NCBI GenBank assembly: GCA_913056335.1
Contig: CAJXLX010000024.1
Coordinates: 1 to 34,790, forward strand
Source: an uncultured Rhodothermaceae bacterium
GTDB lineage: Bacteria; Bacteroidota; Rhodothermia; Rhodothermales; Salinibacteraceae
Reading direction: 5' to 3'
DNA: 34,790 bases
The position numbers were made by a program, and so were the translations under genes. This document shows, piece by piece, positions 11,857 through 13,936 of this stretch. The notes under the pieces are model-generated. The model searched no databases. It saw nothing but the letters and a program-made list of their open reading frames with translations, and had not been told where the DNA came from. Position 1 is the first letter of the stretch. Every line of letters begins with the position of its first letter.

Positions 11857-12921
11857 CTATTTGGGCGCATGCCACACCACGCGCAATGCGGCGCGGTCTG
11901 TGCTCTGCAGTTCGAGCGCCTCGGCTGCAGCAGTTGACACTTCGGGGCCGTTCACACTTCGATCAATGATACGCACGAACACGTGGCGGGCGTCCTGGAC
12001 AGGGGCATCAACCGGATATGATATTAGCACAACGGAATGGTAGGGCAAGGTTGGATGACTGCCCACCAGGGTTTCGGGATCATAGTTTGCGCCGCTGGCC
12101 GTAAGGCGCCCCGCAAAGGCCGAGGGAAACGCTGCTACCTGAGCCGTATCAGGCGGTGCCCAGGCAGTGGTCAACATAGGCTGCTGGTTGGGGATGCGGA
12201 GCGTCTGCCCAATGCGCAGGTTCGTCGCGTCAAGGTCGTTGGCGGCCTGCAGCGCACGCACGCTCACGCCGTACTGCCCTGCGAGGCTGTAGAGCGTCTC
12301 GCCTGCGGCCACCGTATGCTGCTCGGCCTGAACGGACCCCGTGGGTACGTATACCGGATCGGGCACCTGGGCCGGCCTGTCGTTGCGGCGCCAGAGCGAG
12401 TCGGCGGTGACGCCGGTCCGCAGCGCCAGGTCGATCCACGTTGCCCCTTCAGGACGTGCGACGGTCTGCCACGACACTTGATCGGCTGCGCGTGCCGATG
12501 CCGATTGCGATTCCGTCTGGTCATCGGCAGTAGATGGAGGGGCAGAGCGGGATGATGTGTCGGGGGCAGCTGTTGTATCAGTCGTATCAGTAGGGGGCTC
12601 CACCGGAGGCAAGCTGTCCGCCAGCGGGGCGGTGTTAGGCGGCGTATTGGGCGGTGGGGAGGTATCAGGCAATGAGGATCTACGTTGCGGCGGACGCACG
12701 CGCAGCGTGTCGCCAATAGCCAAGGCGGGACCGTCGAGATCGTTCCAGACTTGCAGAGCCCGAACGGAGGCGCCCACGCGCTGCGCAATGCTGTAGAGCG
12801 TGTCGCCCGACTTCACGACATAGGTGGTATCGGCTTGAGCGTAAGCGGTCGACGGCGTGCCCAGCAGCAGCCCGATGAGCAGAAGCCCCCACCCGCACAT
12901 CCGGTAGCATGTGTTCTTCAT
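11857..12921 (-). CDS. secreted LysM protein with an RlpA-like double-psi barrel
   Basis: A 354-residue exported cell-wall protein; the ATG at 12919-12921 is preferred to an in-frame TTG two codons earlier. Residues 1-28 are a signal peptide (LLLIGLLLG, then AYA). LysM1 is at about 34-76 (YVVKSGDTLYSIAQRVG) and binds peptidoglycan glycan strands. Residues 77-147 are a Pro/Thr/Asp/Ser-rich linker, and 150-193 look like a worn LysM. LysM2 is at about 202-243. Residues 265-354 resemble RlpA: FAGRLTASGANYDPETLVGSHPTLPYHSVV, then VRIIDR and AAAEALEL. Asp281 and His289 have the spacing of the catalytic Asp/His pair of Pseudomonas RlpA, a lytic transglycosylase acting on denuded glycans, so activity is plausible. 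Its role may be in cell separation or envelope remodelling. Neighbours on the same strand are a TPR protein and a small membrane protein. Confidence 0.85.
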   Translation of the reverse strand: MKNTCYRMCGWGLLLIGLLLGTPSTAYAQADTTYVVKSGDTLYSIAQRVGASVRALQVWNDLDGPALAIGDTLRVRPPQRRSSLPDTSPPPNTPPNTAPLADSLPPVEPPTDTTDTTAAPDTSSRSAPPSTADDQTESQSASARAADQVSWQTVARPEGATWIDLALRTGVTADSLWRRNDRPAQVPDPVYVPTGSVQAEQHTVAAGETLYSLAGQYGVSVRALQAANDLDATNLRIGQTLRIPNQQPMLTTAWAPPDTAQVAAFPSAFAGRLTASGANYDPETLVGSHPTLPYHSVVLISYPVDAPVQDARHVFVRIIDRSVNGPEVSTAAAEALELQSTDRAALRVVWHAPK

Positions 12922-12967
12922 AACCAATCCTGATCGTTCAACAGCAGAGGCCTGCGTATCCCCTTTG

Positions 12968-13288
12968 CTAAAACCCCACGCCTTTCGCCTGCATCAGTGC
13001 ATCCTGCAGCTCCGACAGGTTCTTGCGATCGCGCTGCGTACGCGCCACGTCGACGCCCTGCTCGTACGTTTCGATGGCCTGCTCTACCGCGCCGCGCCGC
13101 TCGTAGAGCTTGCCCAGATGGTAGTATGTGCCCACATAGTCGGGCTGTTCGGCCACCAGGGTCTCGAAGTATTCTTGGGCGATATCGAGTTCTCCTTGTT
13201 TCAGGTGCTCCTGAGCCAGCGCAAACTGGGTAAACGCATCATCAGGATCGTCATCCAGAAATGATTCGAGCTGGGCAATCCGGTCCAT
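12968..13288 (-). CDS. small tetratricopeptide-repeat protein
   Basis: A 106-residue protein with at least two TPR units: DAFTQFALAQEHLKQGELDIAQEYFETLVAEQPDY and VGTYYHLGKLYERRGAVEQAIETYEQGVDVA. The spacing of small residues (A/G8, A20, P32) follows the TPR consensus. It has no signal peptide and is probably a cytoplasmic scaffold; its partner is unknown. The ATG at 13286-13288 is chosen over a TTG three codons upstream. An acidic first helix (LESFLDDDPDD) precedes the repeats. It lies 46 bases upstream of the LysM/RlpA-like gene and follows the AAA-like gene on the same strand, so the three may be one transcript. Confidence 0.85.
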   Translation of the reverse strand: MDRIAQLESFLDDDPDDAFTQFALAQEHLKQGELDIAQEYFETLVAEQPDYVGTYYHLGKLYERRGAVEQAIETYEQGVDVARTQRDRKNLSELQDALMQAKGVGF

Positions 13289-13373
13289 AAGCGGCAACGG
13301 TATTTTTGGGCAAAAGCACTACACCAGTTCGTACGTTAGCTGGAAGCGGATGTGCCGCGTACCGTGCGGCGAC

Positions 13374-13417: not shown

Positions 13418-13936
13418 TCACGCTGCGGCTCCGTCTGGACTTCCGTGCGTAACAACGAGGTGCGGATGGCACGAGCGCAATGCATCGACGTGTACGGCGT
13501 TGTCAACGCCAAGCACAACGGGATACAGATATGACTCGACTCGCTGAAAGAAATACTCAACTGTAGACGGCATTGCATCCTCATCAGCGGTTGTGGGCTC
13601 ATCAACATGGCTCCACGTAAGCAATTCGTCAAGCCCATCTACGAAGAGGAGCGCCCGCTCTTCAGATCCGCTATCGAACACCTTGCGCAGGCTGTTCTGC
13701 GTATGCTTGCGCCGCTCTCCTACCAACGATGCCGCGCGGAACTGCAGGGCGTTCTGGTCAGCCAGATCGATGATTGTGCCGAACGTCTGTTGGCGCTTGG
13801 CACGGGTCCCCCCGGCCAGGACGATGCAGGGCCCCTCGCTCTGCAGCGCCTCGTGGCAATGACGGCGCATGTTCGCGCTGGTGTGGGCAACCTGCAAAAT
13901 CGGAGCAACGTCAGACTTAGACGGAGAGGCAGCCAT
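13418..13936 (-). CDS. AAA-like protein with degenerate nucleotide-binding motifs
   Basis: A 172-residue protein of unknown function. It aligns by eye with the core of AAA ATPases of the FtsH/Cdc48 type. Residues 36-51 (PCIVLAGGTRAKRQQT) occupy the Walker A position but lack the G..G.GK[ST] pattern. Residues 71-88 (LVGERRKHTQNSLRKVFD) match the helix before Walker B. Residues 95-103 (ALLFVDGLD) match Walker B, with Asp100 kept and the catalytic Glu replaced by Gly101. Residues 139-146 (PVVLGVDN) match sensor 1, and DALRSCHPHL resembles the region around the arginine finger. ATP hydrolysis is therefore unlikely, and a structural or regulatory role is an inference. The reading frame stays open for 32 more codons after the TGA at 13418-13420, up to a TAG at 13319-13321. 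It diverges from alanine racemase across 222 bases. Confidence 0.65.
   Translation of the reverse strand: MAASPSKSDVAPILQVAHTSANMRRHCHEALQSEGPCIVLAGGTRAKRQQTFGTIIDLADQNALQFRAASLVGERRKHTQNSLRKVFDSGSEERALLFVDGLDELLTWSHVDEPTTADEDAMPSTVEYFFQRVESYLYPVVLGVDNAVHVDALRSCHPHLVVTHGSPDGAAA

Follow-up and report, generated by a model that had tools for sequence, protein, structure and literature searches.

In the analysed window, i.e., the whole stretch of 34,790 nucleotides that forms contig 24 of an 86% complete assembly, a 172-amino-acid open frame occupies positions 13418–13936 (stop codon included). According to the ORF list and its translation, the frame lies on the minus strand and is read from 13936 to 13418; the plus strand is interrupted by a stop in this interval. 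The length of the product agrees with a preliminary description of the locus that had been made from the sequence alone. Directly downstream and in the same orientation lies a gene for a short TPR protein (12968–13297, minus strand; Pfam TPR), followed by a gene for a protein with LysM and DPBB_1 domains (11857–12927, also minus strand; Pfam); by synteny, both recur in this neighbourhood. The 172-residue protein is 92% identical to a protein of Longimonas halophila (NCBI taxonomy: Rhodothermota, Rhodothermia, Rhodothermales, Salisaetaceae); further named relatives detected with the family profile include Salinibacter and Salinivenus.

Single-sequence searches of the window protein against Pfam, NCBIfam, the PDB (phmmer) and PHROGs returned nothing above threshold, and its match to PF00004 (E 0.059, 14.3 bits) stayed below the gathering cut-off of 21.2. 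In contrast, an AAA signal became visible with family profiles, and only with these. Of the 21 orthologues, 19 matched PF00004, with 5.7e-5 as the best E, and the PDB matches of the family profile included chains of AFG2 and p97, up to E 8e-8. An AlphaFold2 model calculated from the 21-sequence alignment (pLDDT 84.2, pTM 0.81) showed strands at residues 37–41, 63–67, 96–100, 140–144 and 160–163 and helices at residues 45–59, 76–92 and 125–135. This arrangement corresponds to the three-layer AAA core; the model stops after β5 at residue 163, and the alpha-helical lid subdomain is absent. With this model, Foldseek retrieved 626 PDB chains at E ≤ 1e-3, and the best 50 of these 626 were all AAA proteins, among them p97, Rpt, Vps4, FtsH and Rix7, with query-normalised TM-scores of 0.47–0.62; such moderate values are expected of a lidless core. 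The predicted model hence supports an AAA alpha/beta/alpha core, and it bears out the AAA order of elements that the preliminary description had read over residues 36–146.

Motif loss was read column by column after alignment to AAA domains that possess a P-loop, with the 21 full-length orthologues representing the family. The positions of the motifs match those published for Pvc15 D2 (PMC11495950). At the Walker A position (residues 42–49, 13790–13813, minus strand) the protein reads GGTRAKRQ, i.e., G42-GTRAK-R48-Q49, and no GxxxxGK[S/T] pattern is present. The former Thr column is Gln in 21 of 21 orthologues (Q49 in the window protein), the former Lys column holds Arg in 16, Lys in three and His in two of them (R48 in the window protein), and in the clade of the window the P-loop has lost its second and its third glycine (+3 and +5). 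The Walker B strand (residues 96–103, 13628–13651, minus strand) reads LLFVDGLD, in which D100 is kept and G101 takes the place of the catalytic Glu (LLFVD100-G101-LD103), so that the hhhhDE pattern is unmet. Both of these losses had been described correctly before. The sensor-1 Asn that had also been claimed, however, did not hold up: in the β4 segment VVLGVDN (residues 140–146, 13499–13519, minus strand) N146 lies one residue past the sensor-1 column, where the aligned residue is D145, and the 21 family members have Q, D, S, H, E or A in this column.

Further losses had gone unnoticed, namely those of pore loop 1, both arginine fingers and the lid. In the segment that comprises the former pore loop 1 and helix α2 (residues 72–88, VGERRKHTQNSLRKVFD, 13673–13723, minus strand), alignment columns show the Tyr-Ile-Gly of P-loop relatives replaced by Arg-Arg-Lys, and the aromatic residue is gone. 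Both arginine-finger residues are replaced by Cys and His in the window protein. Apart from the start Met, the invariant residues in 21 of 21 orthologues are Q49, L71, T79, Q80, R84, F87, D88, E92, A95, Y128 and R132.

In most members of the Salinibacter family the Walker B Asp is retained, and a residual ligand may thus still be bound. The altered pocket, e.g., R48/Q49 and D100, could accommodate a nucleotide or another small ligand, and the protein would then act as a ligand sensor. The invariant Q49 and the mostly kept D100 are in agreement with such a role, as is the GxxxxGK that some relatives retain without Ser/Thr. Nevertheless, with the P-loop glycines at +3 and +5 missing from the window's own clade we regard a ligand sensor as unlikely.

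The gene is present as a single copy in 23 of 27 family genomes, and a P-loop is missing from all 21 full-length orthologues. Orthologues with an intact P-loop were sought in the family, the order, the class and a phylum sample, and the family yielded none. The four family genomes without a match are G018 and the three of genus g9. In G018 the TPR gene lies 195 bases from a contig end, and the absence there may thus be an assembly gap. The three g9 genomes keep the LemA-TPM-TPR-LysM neighbourhood (e.g., at L112 and L114) and the pseudo-AAA gene was not detected, which resembles loss in one genus. From its absence in the three g9 genomes it follows that the gene is dispensable there.

Against Longimonas halophila, dN/dS was 0.076 (NG86) or 0.096 (YN00), similar to the values of neighbouring genes, and the differences fell 13/5/54 on the three codon positions, i.e., 54 of 72 on position 3. 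Over the seven computable pairs dN/dS ranged from 0.08 to 0.26, so that purifying selection, for which the preliminary description had proposed a test, is clear; the conserved orthologues that it had also proposed to look for are those counted above. It had considered a decaying gene as one option. Several catalytic motifs are indeed lost, and the gene seems to be missing from one genus. However, dN/dS values this low, retention in most of the family and an identical degenerate motif with its invariant Gln in all 21 members speak against decay, and for a very recent lesion of this copy alone the intact frame and the 92% identity to the Longimonas halophila protein leave little room. We therefore reject this option, to which we give a next to negligible probability. 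The family-wide retention of a motif-less form rather indicates that the gene is not dying and that its product has probably been repurposed as a binding module.

AAA fold, motif loss and purifying selection together make the protein a pseudo-AAA, i.e., an AAA pseudoenzyme, a term that denotes a kind of protein and not a family. Pseudo-AAA domains as such are already known. No described family covering the window protein was present in the model libraries searched, and no paper on this family was found in the literature searched. The description of the protein as a non-hydrolysing AAA relative is well supported. Neither of the two outcomes that had been named as contrary to it, a non-AAA fold or intact-P-loop orthologues in sister species, occurred when we examined both.

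Divergent relatives were found beyond the family. Within the order, profile searches detected members without a P-loop in two additional families (L060 and L066) and, in a further family of the class (f16, which we take to be Balneolaceae), short P-loop-less ORFs of ~180–250 amino acids in about 60 genomes. Profile–profile comparison linked the window family to this f16 group with a probability of 97.9 and E 6e-13. An f16 member that was modelled independently (pLDDT 79) also gave an AAA core in the fold search, with 892 PDB chains at E ≤ 1e-3, of which the best 50 were all AAA proteins; structure prediction followed by a fold search, the check proposed in the preliminary description, thus led to the same fold twice. 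In f16 members the Walker B Asp is mostly replaced by Lys or Arg and the Glu by Asn, all of them (17/17) have an Arg in the first finger column, and some retain GxxxxGK without Ser/Thr. Across 395 sampled genomes of the phylum, scores fell from 130 bits for the last short f16 ORF to 83 bits, and at 83 bits and below nearly all matches were ORFs of ~400 amino acids or more.

In the phylum sample we also read four short ORFs. Three of them, L178 (G270), L179 (G286) and L184 (G582), are lidless AAA cores that stand alone and keep an intact pore loop, DEAD box and RR finger together with a broken Walker A (GQQNADKI, GENRQGKM and GRKKSGKL, respectively); in the fourth, L180, Walker A is intact (GPSGTGKT). 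Short AAA proteins of the phylum hence seem to have lost the Walker A Ser/Thr repeatedly.

Cis15-like AAA domains gave the highest scores with the family profile, and the window family with its divergent relatives looks derived from AAA domains of the Pvc15/Cis15-like type. With these ATPases (L061, L062, L063 and L065; Pvc15 D2) the window family has the AAA core in common, and the framework SHxRYA...YLLQRxEAYxG...hhhhhN...RRhRhhhxF is still recognisable in the pseudo-AAA remnants EYFFDRVxAYxG and hLVVxF. In contrast to the single lidless core without catalytic motifs described here, they are ~650–750 amino acids long and possess a P-loop, a DEAD Walker B, the sensor-1 Asn, two arginine fingers, a Tyr pore loop, a lid and an N-domain. 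From their sequences, we infer that L061–L065 are ATPases of contractile injection systems. In a tree, the two pseudo groups each formed one clade (99/96 and 100/100), separate from eight P-loop domains (98/95). Its rooting was assumed, long internal branches meet, and the row of L066 is very long; that the two pseudo clades come together may thus be artefactual, and we make no claim of a single origin.

As the closest P-loop relatives are Cis15-like and some relatives weakly match models of the defence proteins IetA and BrxF (E 1e-4 to 4e-3), the gene could be carried as cargo, either left over from or accessory to a contractile injection system or a defence system. BrxF of BREX type 3 and IetA share AAA homology with the window family, and BrxF is small too. 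However, this shared homology explains the defence matches, and the window protein itself matched neither the BrxF nor the IetA models of PADLOC and NCBIfam. Among the loci examined, no tail or defence genes, no BREX or Iet neighbours and no contractile injection system cluster were recognised around the gene; the synteny is a stable one with housekeeping genes. An origin from phage or plasmid was likewise considered and dropped, with no matches in phage and plasmid records. Cargo of this sort is therefore, in our judgement, very improbable.

The usual setting of a pseudo-AAA domain is a larger ring or a tandem protein, of which it forms an inactive member. Chloroplast FtsHi proteins are catalytically inactive and occur as inactive subunits in AAA rings, and they were among our Foldseek matches (8xks and 8xqw). 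The window protein might similarly enter a mixed ring and there poison or scaffold an active AAA ATPase. The retained AAA core with its α2 motif is compatible with this, as are the one Arg of the finger pair kept in 17 of 17 distant relatives and the pore loop, Walker B and RR finger of L178, L179 and L184, in which Walker A is degenerate. FtsHi, however, is long, membrane-bound and part of a hetero-hexamer, whereas the window protein is short and lidless in the AlphaFold2 model and has lost the arginine fingers of the ring interface, like its clade, together with the pore loop. Furthermore, the window genome (assembly 86% complete) gave no second match to the family profile, i.e., the search revealed no partner with a P-loop from this subfamily. 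Participation in a mixed ring thus appears to have a low probability.

Gene neighbours may point to the function of the protein. Across the loci examined they comprise genes for TPR, LysM, HtpX, alr, PEP carboxylase, LemA, TPM and carbonic anhydrase, and the sets vary between clades. A PEP carboxylase gene (PF00311, E 4e-268) lies directly upstream on the same strand in 12 family loci (L025–L031, L036, L037, L072, L073 and L075), with gaps to the pseudo-AAA gene of 36–393 nucleotides where the PEP carboxylase frame was correctly picked; the gap at L027 is unreliable. In most of these 12 loci the pseudo-AAA gene is followed by genes for LemA, TPM, the short TPR protein and the LysM/DPBB protein. 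In three Salinibacter-like loci (L027, L030 and L071) a large opposite-strand ORF, which clusters with histidine kinases, stands between the pseudo-AAA gene and LemA. In the window and in Longimonas halophila the TPR and LysM genes are present and PEP carboxylase and LemA are absent at the locus; the neighbours of the window gene are alr, TPR and LysM, with neither PEP carboxylase nor carbonic anhydrase beside it. Two PEP carboxylase genes, L085 (G000:C71) and L086 (G000:C9), lie on other contigs of the window genome and score 887 and 733 bits. We dismissed the idea that PEP carboxylase had relocated together with its neighbours, as the better-scoring copy on C71 is without any of the queried neighbour genes.

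A gene for beta-carbonic anhydrase (PF00484, E about 1e-52 to 1e-54 in the three loci scanned) adjoins the pseudo-AAA gene at L083 (f2) and at four f16 loci (L097, L098, L099 and L151); at f16 loci, neighbours other than carbonic anhydrase are commoner. In genus g6 and at L082, an S41 peptidase gene is divergently placed. PEP carboxylase and carbonic anhydrase both handle bicarbonate. The neighbours thus weakly suggest a link between the pseudo-AAA gene and bicarbonate enzymes, in a post hoc reading of few independent events.

With ATP site, pore loop, arginine finger and lid all missing, the protein cannot do the work of an AAA motor by any known route. We assume with moderate confidence that it is a lidless pseudo-AAA of the Pvc15/Cis15 type that has lost its ATP functions and most likely serves as a static, ATP-independent protein-binding module. 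On the way from a Pvc15/Cis15-like domain of a hexameric AAA ATPase to the present protein, ATP binding would have been lost with Walker A, hydrolysis with the Walker B Glu and sensor 1, trans-activation with the arginine fingers and threading with pore loop 1, while the three-layer core and the surfaces of helices α2 and α3 would have been kept. The protein then presumably would no longer bind nucleotide, and the remaining small module might hold or regulate a partner protein. As partners, PEP carboxylase and beta-carbonic anhydrase, encoded beside the gene in relatives, are the best candidates; in the window genome this part could fall to the short TPR protein of the next gene downstream. 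An adaptor or regulator, the role proposed in the preliminary description, is thus plausible; the observations behind that proposal were partly confirmed, being right on the main points and wrong for the sensor-1 Asn, and its interpretation is supported.

AAA activases are known for Rubisco. We may thus speculate that lidless, nucleotide-free AAA domains partner PEP carboxylase or beta-carbonic anhydrase throughout the class as an ATP-independent counterpart of these activases, although this generalisation is rather a long shot. What sets the present case apart is a stand-alone, single-copy lidless AAA core without an ATP site that is kept family-wide and has divergent relatives across the class, i.e., a motor domain that has apparently been reused as a static module. 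Since relatives keep partial motifs, such as GxxxxGK without Ser/Thr or one finger Arg, the order of loss is open to study. If the link to the neighbouring genes is true, the family would provide a new handle on the control of CO2/bicarbonate metabolism in halophilic bacteria.
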